DNA from: Deltaproteobacteria bacterium
Lineage (GTDB): Bacteria; Desulfobacterota; WTBG01; JAGOGO01
Reading direction: 5' to 3'
Length of the DNA stretch: 46,619 nucleotides
NCBI GenBank assembly: GCA_017996625.1
Contig: JAGOGO010000008.1
Span: 1-46,619, forward strand
This document shows, piece by piece, positions 1,782 through 18,685 of the stretch. The notes beneath the pieces were generated by a model. That model was not told the origin of the DNA and did not search any database. It saw only the letters and a list, made by a program, of their open reading frames with translations. The position numbers were made by a program, and so were the translations under genes. The number at the start of each line of letters is the position of its first letter. Position 1 is the first letter of the stretch.

Positions 1782-3509
1782 ATGAAGTCTATACACGAAA
1801 CAGGCTGTGGAGAGGCACTCCTTCATCTCCTTGAAACCCAACACATTGATTTTATTTTCTGCTCTCCACTTTCCGTCTGGGCGCCGCTCTGGGAGGCTCT
1901 TGCCCGCAAGCAGGCTGCGGGAAGTACCACCCCCCCCACCTATATCAATTGCCGTCATGAGGTTCTCGCGGCGGGACTGGCTGCAGGCTGCTATAAAACC
2001 ACCGGTCGCATGCAGACCATACTTCTCCCTACCGCTCTGGGAGTCCTCAATGCTGCCATGGCGATCCGGGGTGCCTATCAGGAACGTGTCCCTATGGTGG
2101 TGATGGCCCCGGATTCCTTCACCTTCGGTGAGATGCCGGGCCGCGATCCCGGAATGGAATGGCCGCCTCTGCTCGGGGATCTCGGAGGGCCGGCTCGGAT
2201 TGCGGAAGGATACGTTAAATGGGCCAAGGAGGTAAAGACTGCTCTTGAGCTTCCTGCTGCCTTTCGCCGCGCCTGCTATATCGCCGAAAGTGTACCCCGC
2301 GGTCCGGTGCTCCTGAGCATTCCTTTCGAAATACTCATCGACAGCATACCGTTTCAGCATCAGCAGCGCATCGTCCCCTACCCTCTGGTAGCTGCTGATG
2401 AAGCACTTAAAGCGGTGGCTCAACTGATTGTAAGCGCCAGCGAACCTATCATTATCACCGATCATGCAGGACGCTCAGGCCAGAATATCCGGACTCTCAC
2501 CTCGCTGGCGGAGCTCATCGGAGCGCCGGTCTTTGAGTTCTGGATGCCTACCTGCACTAACATTGCTTCGAACCATCCGCTCCACGGCGAAGGCATGGTG
2601 GAGGAAATGCTTGAGACTGCAGACTGCATTCTCGCTATCGCCAGCGATGCGCCGTGGCATCCGGCCGACAGGAAGCTCAAGAGAAATTGCAGTGTCATTG
2701 TGATCGAGGAAGACCCGATGAGGCCGCGCGCCTCCCACTGGGGCTACAAGACCGATTACTGCATTGCCGGCGACGTAGGAGCAAACCTGGCCGGTCTAGT
2801 ACGTCACGTGAAAAGCAGTTTCAGAAAAAAGCCGGATGCAGTTGCAGCCAGGGATAAGAGACTGAAACGGTGGCAGACACACAACGAACGCAGAAGAAAG
2901 GAATTCATACTTCAGGCCAACGAAGCGATGGCCGGCTCCTCTGATATCCATGCCGTGCAGCTCTTTCAGACGCTCGATGCTCTCCTTCCGAAGGATGCAA
3001 TCATCGTCGATGAAATCATTGCCCAGCTCAATCTCATGATGAAAGTCCTGTTTCAGCGAAACTCGTATCAGCATTATCGGGGGCTAATCGCCGGAGGCCT
3101 GGGAATGGGGATTTCTACTGCACTGGGCGTCAAGCTCGCAGACCCTCAGAGAACCGTGGTATGTATTATCGGCGACGGCTCATTCAGCTATAATCCCATT
3201 CCCGCCTGCTTCGGCATTGCTCAGCAGTACCGTCTTCCCCTGCTCGTTATTATCTGCAATAACCAGGGATACGCATCGCAGTCGTGGAACACATTCAAGT
3301 ACTTCCCTGATGGCTGGTCGGTCAAGACGAACACCTTTCTCGGCTCGACCATTGAACCGACTCCGGAATACTCAGCACTAGCTTCAGGCTTTGCCGGCTA
3401 CGGAGAGCGGGTTGACCATCCGGATGACCTGGAATCAGCCTTGCGCCGCGGTCTCGATGCTGTGCAAAGCGGCCGGCTGGCTGTGATCGACGTTCTGCTG
3501 AAGCCTTGA
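1782..3509 (+). CDS. Thiamine-diphosphate-dependent decarboxylase/synthase family enzyme
   Basis: This 575-residue protein has the three-domain layout of the acetolactate synthase, benzoylformate decarboxylase and oxalyl-CoA decarboxylase superfamily. The N-terminal pyrimidine-binding domain carries the catalytic glutamate in NCRHE (E60). The middle domain spans about 200-340. The C-terminal domain has the GDG...NN cofactor motif, GDGSFSYNPIPACFG near 464 and CNNQGY near 494. The ATG follows TTGGAGG at a normal distance and its own sigma-70 promoter. It converges with the Hdr/molybdoenzyme operon, ending 68 bp from it. The substrate cannot be read from the sequence. It could be a 2-oxo-acid decarboxylase or a carboligase; no CoA-binding or FAD-specific signature is obvious. 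Confidence 0.85.
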   Translation: MKSIHETGCGEALLHLLETQHIDFIFCSPLSVWAPLWEALARKQAAGSTTPPTYINCRHEVLAAGLAAGCYKTTGRMQTILLPTALGVLNAAMAIRGAYQERVPMVVMAPDSFTFGEMPGRDPGMEWPPLLGDLGGPARIAEGYVKWAKEVKTALELPAAFRRACYIAESVPRGPVLLSIPFEILIDSIPFQHQQRIVPYPLVAADEALKAVAQLIVSASEPIIITDHAGRSGQNIRTLTSLAELIGAPVFEFWMPTCTNIASNHPLHGEGMVEEMLETADCILAIASDAPWHPADRKLKRNCSVIVIEEDPMRPRASHWGYKTDYCIAGDVGANLAGLVRHVKSSFRKKPDAVAARDKRLKRWQTHNERRRKEFILQANEAMAGSSDIHAVQLFQTLDALLPKDAIIVDEIIAQLNLMMKVLFQRNSYQHYRGLIAGGLGMGISTALGVKLADPQRTVVCIIGDGSFSYNPIPACFGIAQQYRLPLLVIICNNQGYASQSWNTFKYFPDGWSVKTNTFLGSTIEPTPEYSALASGFAGYGERVDHPDDLESALRRGLDAVQSGRLAVIDVLLKP

Positions 3510-6545: not shown

Positions 6546-8096
6546 TCAACTATTCGGCACCCTCTGCCCGGCCATAATAAAGCACCAGTCATAGGCGAAA
6601 AGACCGGCGAGAACAAGCACGCTGGCACCAGCAGCCCACACCACACCGGCACCGGTGATGATAAGCACTGTCGGCACAATTCCGCCCAGGCCCACTGCTC
6701 CGATCCAGAAAAGAGCACGGTAGGGTCCATGGGTAATGAGATACGCGGCATAGCGGGCGTTATCGGTCGGATGTAGAATTGCCACTTCACCGAGAAGGAT
6801 CATCAGATGGATCAGCAGACTCATGATTACTACAATACGTCCGATTGCATACAGATGCGGGGTCATACCCAGACTCGCGGGAAAAAGCACAATCAATGCT
6901 CCTCCGGCGAGAACAGCCTGTATGATGTAATGAAGCGGCAGCAGTGGGGTCTGCCACAGGTCGCACCCTTCACACTGTCCGAACAGGAACCCGGTGTAGG
7001 CTGCCGCAAAAAAACCGGCCAGCACCGTCGGCCACATAAGCATGTCCGAAAACAGAGGAAAGCCAGTATAGTTCGTTGCCAGAAACAAACCGATGAAAAC
7101 GCTGTAGAGCGCCAGGCCGAAGGCGCCCCGGGTAAGCCACGATTTTCTGCTTGGATGCAGAACGATCTGGTAGAAACGCTCCTTGCGACTGAGATCAAAA
7201 ACCAGCATCACCGTAGTAGCCGCGATCAAAAGGAGCGCAAAAAAAGCAAGGGTCAGGTTAAGCAGTCGGCTGTACTGCAGCCAGCCGAACGTCAGACCAA
7301 CCGCCGGCACGGCGAAGAGACCGGAACCAAGCGACTTAAGCCAGAAGAGCGTCGGCACCTGCCATCCCCACGGTCGACCATGCGACACATCGTACGCTGC
7401 CAGCGTGTTCTTCTGCAGAAACGGACCGGTATCAAGAAAGGCAGCTTCTCCACCGTTGACGCTGGTGTTTCTTTCCGACCACATATAAAAAGCTTCATGC
7501 CTCGCAGCGGTCGGGTTCATGACGGATTCATCGGCTTCAATATAATAGACCTTAGGCCTGGTACCCTGCTCGGGCTTACGCACTCGAACACTTTGTCTGC
7601 TTGCGAGCCGGCTGATTTCGCTCTCACTTTGGTTCAGATCTCCCGCTACAATGGCATGTTCAGGGCACACCAGCACGCAGGCAGGTTCCAGTTCCGCTTC
7701 TATGCGATGAGCGCAATAATTGCACTTAGCCACGGTGTAGCGCTCAGGATCGACATAGATGGCATCATAGGGACAGGCCTGCATACAGGATTTACACCCC
7801 AGACAGCGGTTCGAATCGAAGTCAACGATGCCATCGCTGCGCTGGTACATCGCACCGACCGGACAGATCGCCACGCATGGCGGATTTTCGCAGTGGTTGC
7901 ACCGCATCACCAGAAATAATCTCCGGGCATGTGGAAATGTTCCCTTTTCGACATACTTCACCCAGGTGCGATTTACTCCTAAGGGAACACGATTCTCGGT
8001 TTTGCAGGCAACGGTGCAGGCATGACATCCAATGCACCTGCGCTGGTCGATCACAAAACCATACCGTTGAGTAGTCATATCACGTATTTTCTTCAT
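6546..8096 (-). CDS. Four-cluster ferredoxin fused to NrfD-type membrane subunit
   Basis: The ATG at 8096 (MKKIRDMTTQRYGF) is chosen over an in-frame ATG at 8129 because AAGGAG lies upstream of it; the product is 516 residues. Four cysteine clusters fill residues about 15-165: CIGCHACTVAC, CNHCENPPCVAIC, CLGCKSCMQAC and CNYC...CVLVC, the pattern of DmsB/PsrB electron-transfer subunits. From about 230 to the end there are about eight or more hydrophobic segments, matching NrfD/PsrC quinone-interacting subunits. Normally these are two proteins; here they are fused. With an uncleaved N-terminus lacking a signal, the ferredoxin part should face the cytoplasm, consistent with a non-exported catalytic partner encoded next door. 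It probably moves electrons between the molybdoenzyme and quinone. Confidence 0.88.
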   Translation of the reverse strand: MKKIRDMTTQRYGFVIDQRRCIGCHACTVACKTENRVPLGVNRTWVKYVEKGTFPHARRLFLVMRCNHCENPPCVAICPVGAMYQRSDGIVDFDSNRCLGCKSCMQACPYDAIYVDPERYTVAKCNYCAHRIEAELEPACVLVCPEHAIVAGDLNQSESEISRLASRQSVRVRKPEQGTRPKVYYIEADESVMNPTAARHEAFYMWSERNTSVNGGEAAFLDTGPFLQKNTLAAYDVSHGRPWGWQVPTLFWLKSLGSGLFAVPAVGLTFGWLQYSRLLNLTLAFFALLLIAATTVMLVFDLSRKERFYQIVLHPSRKSWLTRGAFGLALYSVFIGLFLATNYTGFPLFSDMLMWPTVLAGFFAAAYTGFLFGQCEGCDLWQTPLLPLHYIIQAVLAGGALIVLFPASLGMTPHLYAIGRIVVIMSLLIHLMILLGEVAILHPTDNARYAAYLITHGPYRALFWIGAVGLGGIVPTVLIITGAGVVWAAGASVLVLAGLFAYDWCFIMAGQRVPNS

Positions 8097-8159
8097 GGTG
8101 TAAGCGAATCTCCTTTGCAGACAGGGCATGTTTCCGCACTAGGACGGAAGCGGAACCCA

Positions 8160-9986
8160 TTACTGCTGATATACCTGTAATTTCAGTTCAGCATCACGTC
8201 CGGGCGCATGTCTCTTCCGATCCGGCCGGACAATGCTTTCGGCAACCACCTCCGCAATATCTCTGACCGGGATACTGGCACTACTGCCAAACGTCTTCTT
8301 GCAGAGCGGGCAGGCAGTCACCAGTATGTCCGGATTCTCTGCAGTCAGCGTGCGGTAGGCCTCAACGGTAATTGCCCGCCGCTGTTCATAGGTGATGACC
8401 GTGTTCGCCAGACTGCCGCCACAGCACAGGCTGTTTTTGCCTTCATGAGATACCGTTACCAAGACGGCGATACGGCTGAGCACCTCTCGCGGTTCTCGGT
8501 ATATTCCGGCTCTCCTTCCCAGTTCGCATGGATCATGGTAGGCTGCGGTCAACGTGGTCGGAAATACCTCGATGCTACCCTGCTCGATAAGGTTTCGAAT
8601 GAACTCCGTATGGTGCATCACTGCCAGATCGCTACTATACTCGCTGGCACAAACCTGATAGCAGATGGGGCAGGAGGTGACCAGCGTGTGAGCTCCTGAG
8701 TTTCTGATGGCGCGACGGTTGTGTTCGATGAGCGCTTTCGCTTCAGCTGCTTTTCCGACCAAAACCAGCGGCCTTCCGCAGCAAACAGTTCCCTGCTCAT
8801 CCATGTAGCAGTAGTGCACCCCGGCAGCATCAAAAATAGCTGTCATTGCTTTGCTCACCCCTGGGACAAGGTGGCCCATGCATCCAGCAAAGTAGAGCAC
8901 CTCAGCTTGCCGCGGTGTGCTCTCGTGCAGGTAATCATATCGGCTGGACGGCTCAGCCGCTGTCTGTTGCCGCGCGTTCAAGCGCAACCCGTCAGTGTTT
9001 ATTCCTACCGGACATGCTTCCTTGCAGCGGCCGCACAGCATGCAATTGTGAAGCGTGCTCTCAATGATCTTCCTGCTGCGTGTATCCCGAAGAAAATAGA
9101 CCGACTGCGTATGACACACATCTGCGGCTGCAGCCATCTGGCAGGTGCTGAGACAGATCCCGCATCGGGAGCACGAATCGATTTCCACTTCGCGGTATAC
9201 TTCTTCGTTCTTGTCCCGAAGGCTGTACTGACGAAACAAAATAAGACCAACCTCAGCCGGAATGTGCAGGTACCGGGAAAAAGGCAAAGAACAAAAAAAC
9301 GTGCCGAGCACCAGTGAATAAGCCCAATAGGCTGGTACAGCGAGTAATGTAACCGGAAGAAAGCCTGAAGCATAGTGCCCCAGCGGAACGGTGATAAAGC
9401 CACCATTACCGTTCACACCGGCCATAAGGCTTTCCGCTGCAAGGCGAAGCGGGAAAACGAGCCAGAGTGCCAGGAGAGCAAAACGGTCTCCGGTCGTATG
9501 GACGACGGGCCGGGCTGTACCGAAGGCATGGGGCACCATTCGTTTGAACCACGCTAGGCTGACACCCGAAAGTGTCAGCAGCAGCAATCCATCCATCACA
9601 TTGTTGAACACTGATTCGTGAGCCTGCAGACCAGCCGGTGATGCAAAAAATTGGTAGAAAACTGGAACGTAGGGAGGATGCAGTATGGTTCCGCTTGCCA
9701 TGATACAGTGCAGGTTGCCAACCGCAATGAGCAGAAACCAGCCGAACGCCAGACTCATGTGCATGTATCCGAGCAAGGCATTTTGGCGAAACAAATTCCG
9801 ATGCAGCAGACTTTCGAAAAAGATTTCCCGCAGCGCCGCGAGAGTTTTTCCGCTCAGAATACCTTTTAGCAGCTGTCTGCGGCTGTCACTGTCGAGTCTG
9901 ACCAACCATTGGCCGGACTTCCATCCTACTATTCCGAGCAGGAATAGAAGACCTCCACAGAAGGGAATAACGAACGGATGAAACAT
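8160..9986 (-). CDS. HdrE/HdrD-like fusion: NarI-like membrane domain plus ferredoxin plus two CCG domains
   Basis: This 608-residue protein begins with about five or six membrane segments resembling NarI/HdrE cytochrome-b-type subunits (residues 1-235). A dicluster ferredoxin follows (CSRCGICLSTC near 270, CMLCGRCKEAC near 312). Two complete cysteine-rich CCG domains come next. The first is GCMGHLVPG...VCCGRP...CPICYQVC and the second is DPCELGRRA...LCCGGS...CPLCKKTF. CCG domains bind the noncubane [4Fe-4S] cluster in HdrB/HdrD, so this looks like a membrane-anchored disulfide- or sulfur-handling subunit similar to HdrDE or DsrMK. The ATG follows AGAGGAC. It takes the position that HdrB2 holds in sHdr clusters. 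Haem ligands could not be assigned with confidence. Confidence 0.88.
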   Translation of the reverse strand: MFHPFVIPFCGGLLFLLGIVGWKSGQWLVRLDSDSRRQLLKGILSGKTLAALREIFFESLLHRNLFRQNALLGYMHMSLAFGWFLLIAVGNLHCIMASGTILHPPYVPVFYQFFASPAGLQAHESVFNNVMDGLLLLTLSGVSLAWFKRMVPHAFGTARPVVHTTGDRFALLALWLVFPLRLAAESLMAGVNGNGGFITVPLGHYASGFLPVTLLAVPAYWAYSLVLGTFFCSLPFSRYLHIPAEVGLILFRQYSLRDKNEEVYREVEIDSCSRCGICLSTCQMAAAADVCHTQSVYFLRDTRSRKIIESTLHNCMLCGRCKEACPVGINTDGLRLNARQQTAAEPSSRYDYLHESTPRQAEVLYFAGCMGHLVPGVSKAMTAIFDAAGVHYCYMDEQGTVCCGRPLVLVGKAAEAKALIEHNRRAIRNSGAHTLVTSCPICYQVCASEYSSDLAVMHHTEFIRNLIEQGSIEVFPTTLTAAYHDPCELGRRAGIYREPREVLSRIAVLVTVSHEGKNSLCCGGSLANTVITYEQRRAITVEAYRTLTAENPDILVTACPLCKKTFGSSASIPVRDIAEVVAESIVRPDRKRHAPGRDAELKLQVYQQ

Positions 9987-10037: not shown

Positions 10038-10394
10038 TCACACTCCGATCACCCCTTCAGCACCCAGCAATTTTTCGATTGCCAGAATTGCTCCTCTCGT
10101 GTTAACACCGCGAGGGCATATGGTCTGGCACTTGCCACAGACCATGCACTTCCGGATTTCCTTGCGAAGGTTCTTGGTGCGTCCTATAGATAGCATCAGC
10201 ATCAGCCTCCGAAGGTTAAAAGAAGTGAATTGTCCCGCTGAACAGGTAGCTGCACACGTACCACAGGCAATACACACATCAAGAGAAGGCTCGGCCGCCC
10301 GCGCCTTCATCGCGAGTCCGATATCTGCCCGGTCGTAGTCAATCTGATTGTCTTTGTTGATGGAATAGCCCCACTCCACGGTTTTCTCCTGCAT
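10038..10394 (-). CDS. hdrC: HdrC-like dicluster ferredoxin (HdrC2 position)
   Basis: This is a small 118-residue protein with two classical [4Fe-4S] motifs, CIACGTCAATCSAG and CMVCGKCQTICPRG, separated by a helical spacer as in HdrC. The start is uncertain: ATG at 10394 (MQEKTVEW) or TTG at 10403. Neither has a strong ribosome binding site, because the upstream bases are taken up by a 9-nt-period repeat. It sits between hdrA and the HdrE/HdrD fusion and should pass electrons between them. The second cysteine of each cluster set is intact, so it is expected to be functional. Confidence 0.85.
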   Translation of the reverse strand: MQEKTVEWGYSINKDNQIDYDRADIGLAMKARAAEPSLDVCIACGTCAATCSAGQFTSFNLRRLMLMLSIGRTKNLRKEIRKCMVCGKCQTICPRGVNTRGAILAIEKLLGAEGVIGV

Positions 10395-10403
10395 GGTGTG
10401 CAA

Positions 10404-11504: not shown

Positions 11505-12629
11505 TCAAAACACTTTGAGCACCTTCGGCTTATTCGGTCTTCCCAGCGGCCTTCCCTGTATATCGGAGTACTTTTTGTCAGGGTCATACGGCACACCCAT
11601 CTTATCGAGCAATGGCTCTATGGCTGCCTGATGCACCTGTAATCCGATATCCCACGGATCATAGCCAAGCACCAGGCCGGCAACCTCTTCAAAAGTGAAA
11701 ACCGGTATTCCGAAGCCATCCTTGCCGTAGGTAATTCCCTCGATCTCACTGATCGCATACTGCCAGCGATCCAGAAACAGCGAACATCCCGGACAATTGG
11801 TAATAATCATATCTGGCTCGTACGGCTGCATCGAGTTAAACTTTTTCTTGGAGCAGCCGATTGAGTACCCGCGATTGGCGCGCACAAAGTACTGCCGGAA
11901 ACCGAATCCGCAGCAATGGCGGCGTTCCGGGTAGTCGACCGCTTCTCCTCCCCAGGCGTCGATCATTCCTGCCAGGACATACGGGTACTCTGCTCCGCCG
12001 ATTCCTTTCTGAGGGAACATTTTGGCATAGTGGCACCCGATATGGTCGACAACCTTGAGCGGCTTTCCCGTATGCTGGTTGACTAGCCGGTACTTTGCCT
12101 GACTGGCAATGCTTTCTCTGAACCGGTAGAGCACATCGCTGGCGTGCGCCAGATTCCCGGGCTTCTCAAATTCACGGCCGGTGGCATTTTTTAAGTACCG
12201 CCGGACCTTTTCTTCTACGTCCGGAAAGTGACGCCAGGTTTCCAGTACCTCGGTATACACTCCAAAGGAGGTGACACAGGAAGGAACGAAGTTTTCATAA
12301 CCGGCTTCGGTCATGAGCGCAAACTGGCGGGCCACCACTGTCATCAAAGTATCAAGCGGAATGATGTCACTATGGTATCCAATCCCGGTACAGGTGGTAT
12401 GGCAGGGATGTTCATATACTGTTTTCCCCAGGTCGTCTCTCAGGATCTTCAGAAACGTCCATTCAGCTGCGGGAAAGAAATTCTGTCTGACACAGCTCCG
12501 CACATAAAAATAGCGGTCGTTAGCAATCTCCTTTTGGTATTCCTGCCAAACGGCTTGCTTACCGCTCACCTTCTGCGTCCCTGTCTGTGCCGGATTTATC
12601 TGGTTACCGTGTGCAGTTAGGTGACTCAT
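11505..12629 (-). CDS. hdrB: HdrB-like subunit with one complete and one degenerate CCG site
   Basis: This 374-residue protein has two cysteine-rich halves. The C-terminal half has the full noncubane-cluster pattern: Cys199, Cys239-Cys240, Cys279-x2-Cys282. The N-terminal half is degenerate: Cys46, Cys76, Cys80-Thr-Gly in place of CCG, and a single Cys118 where C-x2-C is expected (SCVTSF). In methanogens HdrB carries two noncubane clusters that cleave the CoM-CoB disulfide; here only one seems fully ligated. The start ATG overlaps the stop of hdrC (ATGA at 12626-12629), with GGGGGAAG upstream, so the two are translationally coupled. Confidence 0.88.
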   Translation of the reverse strand: MSHLTAHGNQINPAQTGTQKVSGKQAVWQEYQKEIANDRYFYVRSCVRQNFFPAAEWTFLKILRDDLGKTVYEHPCHTTCTGIGYHSDIIPLDTLMTVVARQFALMTEAGYENFVPSCVTSFGVYTEVLETWRHFPDVEEKVRRYLKNATGREFEKPGNLAHASDVLYRFRESIASQAKYRLVNQHTGKPLKVVDHIGCHYAKMFPQKGIGGAEYPYVLAGMIDAWGGEAVDYPERRHCCGFGFRQYFVRANRGYSIGCSKKKFNSMQPYEPDMIITNCPGCSLFLDRWQYAISEIEGITYGKDGFGIPVFTFEEVAGLVLGYDPWDIGLQVHQAAIEPLLDKMGVPYDPDKKYSDIQGRPLGRPNKPKVLKVF

Positions 12630-13342
12630 TCTTCCCCCTTTGCATGGTTTCCTGAATTTGCGGAATAAACGTGATGGAAATAAGCTTCTCGCCCCGATGT
12701 GCCATATTCAATGCCCATCTCCAACGCAATGTGTCGCGAGTGTTCTTCAACTGCTTCAAACCGGGACCAGCCTCCGGTGATTTCGAAGATTTTTCGCAGC
12801 TCCTGCAACGTATCATCGGGTATCTTCCTGAGACAGCCCTGACCTTCGACCTGGTATTGCGCACCCAGCCGTTCCATAACAGCTACCCAGTTTCGCTGTT
12901 GCCAGTCCCAAATCGGCCCGAGTTCCGGATGCAGATCGGTTCCGATATTTTCGAGGTACAGACAGTACCCGTGATTCAAAATCCATTCGCCGATGGTTCT
13001 CTTGATCGCCAGCTGCTGTCTCCCCTTTTCCGACTGAACGAAATACCCCGTCTCCTGAGCCAGGGAGCGAAGGGCAATAACGACCAGGCCCGGAGCATTT
13101 CCTCTCGGACAGCGAGTCTTGCATGACATGCACTCTCCGCAGTACCAGATGGTATCGGATTTCAATAGCCCCTTAATGGCGTCGTCATCTTTCGTTTGCA
13201 CGGTGGAGACAATAACCCGGGGATCGTAGTCGTAGAACTCGGCAGCAGGACAAATTGCGGTACAGGTCCCGCAGTTGATGCATGCCTTTAATCCTTCCCG
13301 GATTCTGACGTCCTGCATTAACATGTCGAATAGTGTTCCCAT
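12626..13342 (-). CDS. hdrC: HdrC-like dicluster subunit, first gene of operon
   Basis: This 238-residue protein carries two [4Fe-4S] motifs, CINCGTCTAICP (near 20) and CGECMSCKTRCPRG (near 75), in a helical HdrC fold. The C-terminal part is longer than in many HdrC proteins. The ATG is preceded by GGGAGG with a rather long 14-nt spacer. It is the promoter-proximal gene of a seven-gene minus-strand operon and its stop overlaps hdrB. HdrC normally wires HdrB to HdrA. Confidence 0.88.
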   Translation of the reverse strand: MGTLFDMLMQDVRIREGLKACINCGTCTAICPAAEFYDYDPRVIVSTVQTKDDDAIKGLLKSDTIWYCGECMSCKTRCPRGNAPGLVVIALRSLAQETGYFVQSEKGRQQLAIKRTIGEWILNHGYCLYLENIGTDLHPELGPIWDWQQRNWVAVMERLGAQYQVEGQGCLRKIPDDTLQELRKIFEITGGWSRFEAVEEHSRHIALEMGIEYGTSGREAYFHHVYSANSGNHAKGEE

Positions 13343-17622: not shown

Positions 17623-18165
17623 ATGGCACGACGTATTGTCTGGAGACCGTACATTGCCGGAGCGCTCCTTGGTGTGGTGGCGACCATATCCGTGCTCGTT
17701 ACCACCCAGATCCTGGACAAGCCTCAGTACCTGGGCGCTTCCACAACCTTTGTCCGGGCAGCGGGGATGATCGAGCGTCTTATTGTTCCGAACCACGTTG
17801 CCCAGAATCCCTATTTCACAAAAGAAAAGGTGATAGTGGACTGGCAGTTCATGCTCCTCATCGGTGTTTTCGTCGGAGCATGCCTGGCTTCGCTGGCTGA
17901 CCGAAGTTTCAAGGCCGAATCCACGCCGCCGATCTGGCGTGAGCGTTTCGGCAGTAGGGTGGCAGTACGAGCCGTTGGCGCGTTTTTTGGAGGTATTCTC
18001 GCCATGTTCGGGGCCCGCATGGCTGATGGCTGTCCAAGCGGGCACGGGTTGAGCGGCCTGATGCAGCTGTCGGTGAGCGGCTTCCTCGCCCTGGCTTTGT
18101 TCTTCGCTACCGGCGTGCTGCTCGCCCATCTGATCTATCGAGGCAAGGAGGTGCGGCATGAATGA
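17623..18165 (+). CDS. YeeE/YedE-type permease, first half
   Basis: This 180-residue integral membrane protein of the YeeE/YedE (DUF395) family carries the family signature with its conserved cysteine in GARMADGCPSGHGLSG near 132-147. Several transmembrane helices flank it, including one at the N-terminus. E. coli YeeE takes up thiosulfate through cysteine relays; here the permease is split into two half-length proteins. A strong AAAGGAGG lies before the ATG. It overlaps the second half by 8 bp, so the two are co-translated. Substrate assignment to thiosulfate or another sulfur species is inference from the family. Confidence 0.85.
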   Translation: MARRIVWRPYIAGALLGVVATISVLVTTQILDKPQYLGASTTFVRAAGMIERLIVPNHVAQNPYFTKEKVIVDWQFMLLIGVFVGACLASLADRSFKAESTPPIWRERFGSRVAVRAVGAFFGGILAMFGARMADGCPSGHGLSGLMQLSVSGFLALALFFATGVLLAHLIYRGKEVRHE

Positions 18166-18685
18166 GCAGTGGCTTGGATTGATAACTGGGATTCTCTTCG
18201 GCGCGCTGCTCCAGCAAGGCAGAGTGCTGCGGTTCGAGAAACAGGTGGGCGCTATGCTTTTGAAGGACATGACCATCCTGAAATTCATGCTTTCGGCAAT
18301 TATCGTGGGTATGATCGGCATCAATCTGCTGGCATCGCTGGGACTGGTTGCGCTCAAGATCAAAGCCACTCAGCTGGGAGCGATCCTGGCCGGCGGTATT
18401 CTTTTCGGTGCCGGCTGGTCCCTGGCCGGGTACTGTCCGGGCACATCGATCGGCGCTGTTGCTGAAGGCCGCTGGCATGCAGTGTGGGCCATCCTCGGCA
18501 TGCTGGCCGGTGCGGCACTCTTTGCCGAGACATACCCATTCCTCAAAGGCAGTCTGCTTGCGTGGGGAAACTTCGGCACAATCACCCTTCCCGGTGTGCT
18601 TGGTATCAGCCCGTGGGCAGTCATTCCCCTTTTGACAGTAGTGTATATACTGATTTTCGTGTGGTTTGAAAAAAAGGGAATGTGA
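18158..18685 (+). CDS. YeeE/YedE-type permease, second half
   Basis: This 175-residue membrane protein has five or so helices and the matching family motif FGAGWSLAGYCPGTSIGA near 85-102, in which the cysteine is conserved. It begins inside the end of the preceding half-permease, with AAGGAGG just upstream of its ATG. The two halves likely form one heterodimeric transporter. Its presence about 4 kb from the Hdr operon supports, but does not prove, a sulfur-compound economy. Confidence 0.85.
   Translation: MNEQWLGLITGILFGALLQQGRVLRFEKQVGAMLLKDMTILKFMLSAIIVGMIGINLLASLGLVALKIKATQLGAILAGGILFGAGWSLAGYCPGTSIGAVAEGRWHAVWAILGMLAGAALFAETYPFLKGSLLAWGNFGTITLPGVLGISPWAVIPLLTVVYILIFVWFEKKGM

Follow-up and report, generated by a model that had tools for sequence, protein, structure and literature searches.

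An HdrDE/EtfD-type fusion beside a fused NrfD molybdoenzyme: a possible pair of menaquinone ports in one Deltaproteobacteria gene cluster

Why should two different membrane modules, both of a quinone-reactive type, lie side by side in one bacterial gene cluster? The question is raised by a 46,619-nucleotide stretch of DNA (the window: contig JAGOGO010000008.1 of assembly GCA_017996625.1, from a Deltaproteobacteria bacterium, and contig C92 in our numbering of this 3.14 Mb, 91.6% complete assembly). Seven co-directional minus-strand genes, running from 13342 down to 3578, encode HdrC, HdrB, HdrA and HdrC' homologues, an HdrDE/EtfD-type fusion (hereafter DE), an iron-sulfur (FeS) protein fused to an NrfD domain (FeS-NrfD), and a molybdopterin catalytic subunit (Table 1). 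The genes are spaced by one 4-base overlap and otherwise by gaps of 30 to 97 bases, and are alike in GC content at third codon positions (GC3, 0.58-0.64). Their parts were confirmed by Pfam and NCBIfam, with none of the seven proteins reaching a curated NCBIfam cut-off among the matches listed (at most 25 per protein). A sequence-only reading of this DNA had placed a NarI/HdrE-like domain, with CCG domains, next to an NrfD-like domain, and had proposed that the two quinone sites allow a loop or confurcation between sulfur chemistry and the molybdoenzyme. Both open reading frames (ORFs) are where that reading had put them, and the modules are indeed two distinct ones of quinone type, DE keeping the EtfD haem and menaquinone residues in 70/70 sequences and the NrfD domain being recognised by PF03916; a putative coupling of sulfur chemistry to the molybdoenzyme is plausible. 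We tentatively suggest that two pre-existing modules have been joined here, as parallel, electroneutral menaquinone ports on the cytoplasmic (N) side of the membrane, perhaps sharing a sulfur intermediate.

The membrane part of DE had no credible match to any Pfam membrane family, Pfam finding two CCG stretches and Fer4 in this protein. PF02665 (NarI) gave no match at E <= 10 in 27 sequences (the window's and 26 relatives) and none at E <= 0.001 in the host genome, and a profile built from the DE membrane domain had no hit at E <= 10 among PDB sequences. Compared directly, this profile matched neither NarI (1.8%) nor a DsrM-type set (0.6%), but it matches five NarI+HdrD fusions of the phylum, the FadF-type set (97%, E 4.5e-11), which in turn match the NarI profile (96%, E 1e-8); both set names are labels coined in this analysis. 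The homology of DE to NarI is therefore transitive, via the FadF-type bridge, and not direct. An AlphaFold model of DE (predicted local distance difference test 88, predicted template-modelling score 0.80) has as its best fold match the EtfD of M. smegmatis, 9ojn, over residues 1-591 (Foldseek E 1.4e-19; VIA Z 22.1, root-mean-square deviation 6.5, 552 residues aligned). Residues 2-259 also match E. coli NarI (1q16_C; Z 9.3, root-mean-square deviation 5.0, 177 aligned), a Z below the tool's warning level of 13 for helical bundles that counts only alongside the profile chain. Other VIA fold rows, beyond EtfD, LutA, HdrB and NarI (racemases and others), were set aside as single-domain resemblance. 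The label "NarI/HdrE-like" thus holds for the fold, through transitive homology, and fails as a Pfam family assignment.

The ligand residues of DE were followed through an alignment of 70 sequences, comprising the window's protein and, from the 80 Bacteroidota loci described below, 69 proteins with lengths of 575-640 aa, the others being omitted. The only invariant histidines of the membrane part are His62, His76 and His241, and H76, H241, W83, F230 and R149 are identical in 70/70. In M. smegmatis EtfD, as described in PMC13083937, a single haem b is bound by His78 and His241, a putative menaquinone lies 4-5 Å from the haem, stacked between Phe85 and Phe230, and arginines stand at the haem carboxy groups. 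These His and Phe pairs correspond to H76/H241 and W83/F230 of DE, whose aromatic residues lie 7 after the first His and 11 before the second, as in the EtfD stack; the correspondence rests on equal spacing, not on residue-by-residue superposition. DE Y223 aligns with a FadF-type His that precedes the last His by two turns, and it lies 18 residues before H241, as NarI H187 lies before H205, and L86 lies ten residues past H76, where NarI has H66 ten past H56. We take H56, H66, H187 and H205 to be the NarI haem ligands. The membrane part of DE, judged by these residues, has the candidate ligands and quinone contacts for one haem, unlike the two-haem NarI.

The CCG sites set DE apart within its own core. 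Both are complete, with ten Cys invariant in 70/70 sequences, those of the first site being C369, C402, C403, C439 and C442. HdrB has a complete second site (C199, C239, C240, C279, C282) and only three of the five Cys of its first (C46, C80, C118), as do all 72/72 sequences compared, so that the complete double CCG site of the core sits in DE. Despite this incomplete first site, no protein of the core is closer to its Bacteroidota ORFs than HdrB (60-74% identity). HdrA is of the short kind, residues 1-334 of 343 matching residues 1-338 of the sHdrA chain 6TJR_A (349 aa; E 1.8e-57).

In the FeS-NrfD protein, a Fer4 domain (E 1.7e-24), part of a PsrB/TtrB-type ferredoxin region with PsrB as its best solved match, is followed by the NrfD domain at residues 253-524 (PF03916, E 1.6e-22); the best ribosome-binding site favours a start at 8096 over that at 8129. 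We compared the window's protein and 12 fused relatives with six references (E. coli NrfD, HybB and four unfused PsrC/QrcD-type proteins); Natrinema gelatinilyticum, which gave a catalytic subunit match, is not among the 12. QrcCD residues S138 (the quinone-site Ser), D120, Y150, Y110 and ferredoxin Y113 have been tested according to PMC13059093. The S138 position is Ser in 13/13 fused proteins (S330 in the window), that of D120 is Asp in 12/13 (D312; His in 2/6 references) and that of Y150 holds Tyr or Phe in six proteins each and Val in one (Y342). At the Y110 position Tyr occurs in 0/13, yet in just 1/6 references, and the Y113 position, assigned from the two Cys that flank it, has Ser in nine and Ala in four of the 13 proteins.

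Another departure lies in the eighth transmembrane helix (TM8), where the gate Arg of 6/6 references is replaced by an acidic residue in 13/13 fused proteins (Asp 3, Glu 10; D514 in the window, 6588-6590). PMC8076601 lists this Arg for 13 subunits, including SoeC, and gives as exceptions Lys in one DsrP type and no conservation in ActF, the other DsrP type and SreC. Of four further NrfD proteins, two have Arg, that of Sulfurovum has Lys and that of own contig C157 has Leu. In TM1, where 12/12 fused relatives have a Tyr, the window has Leu261, and two other NrfD proteins of the host genome also have another residue there (Ala, Val; the alignment is less certain in these). TM1 Lys K265 is invariant in 13/13 fused proteins, absent from the six references and present in Sulfurovum. 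Both modules, as far as aligned or equally spaced residues can tell, keep most of the quinone-site residues tested: the DE set is complete, whereas the NrfD set deviates at L261 and D514 and keeps S330, D312 and Y342. Missing quinone-site residues in one module, which would tell against the sequence-only reading, are thus in part a fact for the NrfD module.

The partner catalytic subunit has the PsrA chain as its best solved match; its C174, aligned to the conserved Cys of PsrA and present in 13/13 family members, is the candidate Mo ligand. The best curated models for this subunit, all below cut-off, are the reductases DmsA/YnfE and PhsA. The host genome has two further NrfD proteins above the cut-off and one below, one being HybB-like and one lying beside another catalytic subunit. 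Own contig C157 (L230 7175-11818) encodes another molybdoenzyme, whose FeS and NrfD parts come from separate genes.

On which side of the membrane would these sites lie? A twin-arginine translocation (Tat) motif was found within the first 60 residues of 0/13 fused-family catalytic subunits, including the window's, and of 5/5 unfused control subunits; this is a motif test and not a signal predictor, and one protein (L136), whose ORF had been read too far upstream, was judged from nearer starts. Counting Lys and Arg near eight helices picked by hydropathy, we found the N-terminal (FeS) side of the NrfD domain to be the more positive in 13/13 fused proteins (9 to 2 in the window) and the opposite side in 5/5 canonical NrfD proteins, HybB being omitted; among further unfused proteins those of Azoarcus and Sulfurovum are canonical and that of contig C157 is inverted. 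In DE, where the window's model set the loop borders, the charge bias puts the FeS side inside in 70/70 sequences; by the model's helices, H76 is close to where TM2 meets the cytoplasm, and H241 lies just beyond TM5. The fused NrfD domain is thus probably upside-down relative to canonical ones, to judge from its charges. The lack of a Tat motif, the charge bias and the position of the haem ligands together point to the N side for both modules, and by this prediction their quinone sites are probably cytoplasmic. With both sites on one side, the transmembrane loop that the sequence-only reading had offered is disfavoured.

The two modules have separate histories. For the first we took the best 80 of 316 relatives from a scan of genome contigs, all titled as Bacteroidota groups, and found the complete order HdrC-HdrB-HdrA-HdrC'-DE in 72/80 loci. 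After DE, genes named by eye are a small secreted-type protein gene in 27 loci, a purL-like gene on the opposite strand in 28, and in 9 instead a gene like KBL (2-amino-3-ketobutyrate CoA ligase). For the second, the FeS-NrfD protein occurs at E <= 1e-75 in at least 11 of 395 genomes of the phylum, this and the corresponding search for DE having scored three candidates per genome, so that their counts are lower bounds. Seven of the 11, the window included, carry the fused form; the other four (G193, G205, G335, G388) have unfused proteins and Tat-type catalytic subunits. In the six other fused genomes the two genes form a pair, and no Hdr gene was seen among the neighbouring ORFs inspected (six each side in part of them). 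The pair also occurs in plasmid records of Rhodococcus jostii RHA1, Thermomicrobium roseum and haloarchaea. It adjoins DsrE, TusA, MBL-fold and Mrp genes in R. jostii RHA1, and rhodanese, TauE/SafE and MobA genes in two haloarchaea that share one arrangement. Literature searches aimed at them turned up no paper naming the Bacteroidota Hdr core or a fused SoeBC.

We propose that module 1 (HdrC-HdrB-HdrA-HdrC'-DE) would act as a thiol/disulfide (or persulfide):menaquinone oxidoreductase, its electrons moving among Hdr-type non-cubane sites, flavin adenine dinucleotide and [4Fe-4S] clusters and, as in EtfD, leaving via one haem b beside a menaquinone site. Module 2 would be a cytoplasm-facing complex iron-sulfur molybdoenzyme, similar to SoeABC, with its own quinone site in the inverted NrfD domain. 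The modules would be coupled only via the shared menaquinone pool and perhaps also by a shared sulfur intermediate, such as sulfite that module 1 would produce and module 2 oxidise. The anatomy of the modules, their ligand residues, their homology and their separate occurrence come straight from computation, whereas we infer their orientation, their use of quinone, a putative sulfur substrate, a putative oxidative direction, and their possible membership in a common complex or pathway. The occurrence of module 2 relatives beside DsrE and TusA or rhodanese and TauE/SafE genes supports the sulfur link, and futalosine-type genes, recognised by eye in the host genome, support menaquinone as the quinone; ATP sulfurylase is also present there.

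Several observations weigh against this proposal. Neither the FeS-NrfD nor the molybdoenzyme gene was found in any of the 80 Bacteroidota loci, within the DNA examined around each (at least 3 kb after DE in 63 of the 72 complete loci), and DE was found at E <= 1e-60 in at least one of the 395 phylum genomes, the window's own; apart from the latter, none of these loci and genomes was found to have both modules. No sulfur-transfer gene was recognised, by eye only, in the six other fused genomes. Two of the five annotated neighbourhoods of module 2 also show none, that of Thermomicrobium and that of Natrinema halophilum, where the pair lies beside Mrp; the Halomarina record is unannotated. In the host genome, where absences are bounded by the 91.6% completeness, AprA is below its cut-off, a PF01077 domain occurs in a single frame of 299 aa, and TusA genes are confined to a selenium-type locus on another contig. 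The window's NrfD quinone site, too, deviates at L261. The TusA contig, C49 (L208), carries a yedE-tusA-cysteine desulfurase-yedF-selD-like row (names by eye) near the futalosine-type menaquinone genes, and the genome's sole DsrE-family match, which is under the cut-off, lies in the frame of the second TusA. YTD-type sulfur disproportionation (PMC12998232) was considered and dropped, with TusA in the selenium-type row and the DsrE match sub-threshold.

An unlikely but serious alternative is that the modules are neighbours only, two independent electron-transfer systems made adjacent by gene transfer and sharing just the quinone pool. Each module is found alone elsewhere, and DE at E <= 1e-60 went undetected in 394/395 phylum genomes; the shared strand, small gaps and similar GC3 of the seven genes speak against it. 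Another possibility, to which we give a rather low probability, reverses the flow, menaquinol being used in the cytoplasm to reduce a sulfur compound or disulfide. The sub-threshold AprA, the single PF01077 frame and the absence of a GCV_H/LbpA match (at E <= 0.001 in the host genome) would suit such a reduction, as would the reductase models and PsrA match of the catalytic subunit, whereas the relative that lies beside DsrE, TusA and MBL-fold genes belongs to Rhodococcus, an aerobe. The parallel-port proposal could also be extended to a two-port supercomplex, in which an LbpA-less Hdr core frees sulfite or a related oxyanion and a docked molybdoenzyme oxidises that product, both reducing menaquinone, with electrons leaving through the one-haem HdrDE/EtfD hybrid and through the upside-down NrfD domain with its acidic gate; we consider this improbable, and no such complex is described in the literature searched.

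The two uses that the sequence-only reading had suggested fare worse. Transmembrane quinone cycling, in which quinone is reduced on one side and quinol oxidised on the other so that charge is moved, has a published precedent in the proposal for DsrMKJOP, whose DsrM (NarI type) and DsrP (NrfD type) are such a module pair (PMC8076601); the pairing of NarI-type with NrfD-type proteins is thus itself not new. Here both modules look N-side, DE has one haem-ligand pair, with Y223 and L86 at the places of the assumed NarI ligands H187 and H66, and no DsrJ-like or cytochrome c gene was recognised among the seven, which makes such cycling quite improbable. Confurcation by a flavin at HdrA, partnered by the two quinone modules, would draw on HdrA, HdrB and HdrC homologues that are all present; HdrA, however, has about half the length of the methanogen chains that match it in part (343 against 643-671 aa), and none of the seven genes was recognised as encoding a hydrogenase or formate partner, so that confurcation appears very improbable indeed.

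Table 1. Coordinates of the Hdr core and the fused NrfD molybdoenzyme in the window
Feature	Position	Strand	Basis
HdrC-like protein, 238 aa, two [4Fe-4S] sites	12626..13342	-	Pfam Fer4_8 4.6e-11; NCBIfam HdrC 1.1e-25, below cut-off; part of Bacteroidota core
HdrB-like protein, 374 aa	11505..12629	-	alignment to solved HdrB chains
Short HdrA-like flavoprotein, 343 aa	10439..11470	-	6TJR_A match
Small HdrC'-like ferredoxin, 121 aa, TTG start	10038..10403	-	Pfam Fer4_17 2.4e-9
HdrDE/EtfD-type fusion (DE), 608 aa: predicted five-TM one-haem cytochrome b, two [4Fe-4S], two complete CCG domains	8160..9986	-	
Membrane quinone module 1 (DE residues 1-260)	9207..9986	-	H76, H241, W83/F230, R149; EtfD spacing
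FeS-NrfD fusion, 527 aa as called	6546..8129	-	Pfam; likely start 8096 (516 aa)
Four-cluster PsrB/TtrB-type ferredoxin domain (FeS-NrfD residues 22-200)	7530..8066	-	phmmer to PsrB 2vpw_B, E 2.3e-53
Membrane quinone module 2 (NrfD domain, residues 253-524)	6558..7373	-	PF03916; alignments
Molybdopterin oxidoreductase catalytic subunit, 956 aa	3578..6448	-	Pfam; alignment to PsrA

Contamination of the assembly was considered and rejected: the window fits five other stretches of its own genome in GC and tetranucleotide composition (r 0.88-0.93, the values of the five being inflated as they themselves form the reference), unlike three Bacteroidota loci (0.05-0.62). The lowest r within the window is that of the Hdr stretch, 0.884, an own-genome stretch (L120) having 0.885. 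Scans gave 4 promoter-like sites against 7.8 expected and 22 terminator-like sites, many within genes, against 8.3 expected; neither was used as evidence. Facing the molybdoenzyme gene, and ending 68 bases from it, is a plus-strand gene (1782-3509) for a thiamine-diphosphate enzyme, nearest PRK08327 (below cut-off). Two overlapping half-size ORFs of a YeeE/TsuA-type transporter (17623-18685, plus strand) are separated by 4.3 kb from where the Hdr genes begin; within the DNA examined, three Bacteroidota loci (L008, L043, L054) likewise have YeeE-like ORFs upstream of their Hdr core.

Should the parallel-port proposal hold and the modules cooperate, the cluster would offer a compact case for how an inverted NrfD domain with an acidic TM8 residue handles protons, and for how, in the absence of a transmembrane loop, Hdr chemistry could feed the quinone pool. 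The Bacteroidota five-gene core is a testable system in its own right. We have seen no case, in the literature searched, of an Hdr core with a one-haem HdrDE/EtfD hybrid that adjoins a fused, inverted NrfD molybdoenzyme whose gate residue is acidic.

DE most resembles EtfD/FadF, with a five-TM module predicted to hold one haem b, two [4Fe-4S] clusters and two CCG domains in one chain, and with a predicted haem His in TM2, another after TM5 and menaquinone aromatics at matching spacing. It differs in that the first CCG site of EtfD has four Cys and a linear [3Fe-4S] cluster, while that of DE is complete (CC + CPIC), and in that Hdr genes and no electron-transfer flavoprotein (ETF) are found among the seven, the rest of the genome not having been searched for ETF. 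The five Cys at each CCG site of DE are as in HdrB, and the joining of an HdrD-type double complete CCG site to a cytochrome b is as in the HdrDE of methanogens. DE, however, is a single bacterial chain accompanied by HdrC-B-A-C', and has one invariant pair of candidate haem ligands among its three invariant His. The HdrE of methanogens carries two haems. The short HdrA, like 6TJR, with HdrC and HdrB alongside, recalls the sHdr system; a membrane fusion stands here where, in the sHdr gene order that we assume, there is a second soluble HdrB, and an LbpA-type protein, which we take to be the defining sHdr partner, was not found in the host genome.

Module 2 shares with SoeABC a molybdoenzyme without a Tat motif, a four-cluster FeS part and an inverted NrfD-type anchor, as predicted from sequence; the orientation of SoeC in the membrane is likewise a prediction in PMC8076601. 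SoeB and SoeC are separate proteins, whereas FeS and NrfD are here fused in one ORF, and the position of SoeC Arg297 (given in the same paper) is Asp or Glu in 13/13 fused proteins, SoeC being likened by description and not by alignment. The gene set as a whole is similar in plan to DsrMKJOP, which also combines a NarI-fold module and CCG protein with an FeS protein and NrfD-type subunit. DsrM is a di-haem protein and DsrJ and DsrO are periplasmic, whereas DE has one invariant haem pair and no profile match to DsrM-type proteins, the FeS-NrfD protein is predicted to lie on the N side, and a molybdoenzyme and HdrABC are added to the plan.

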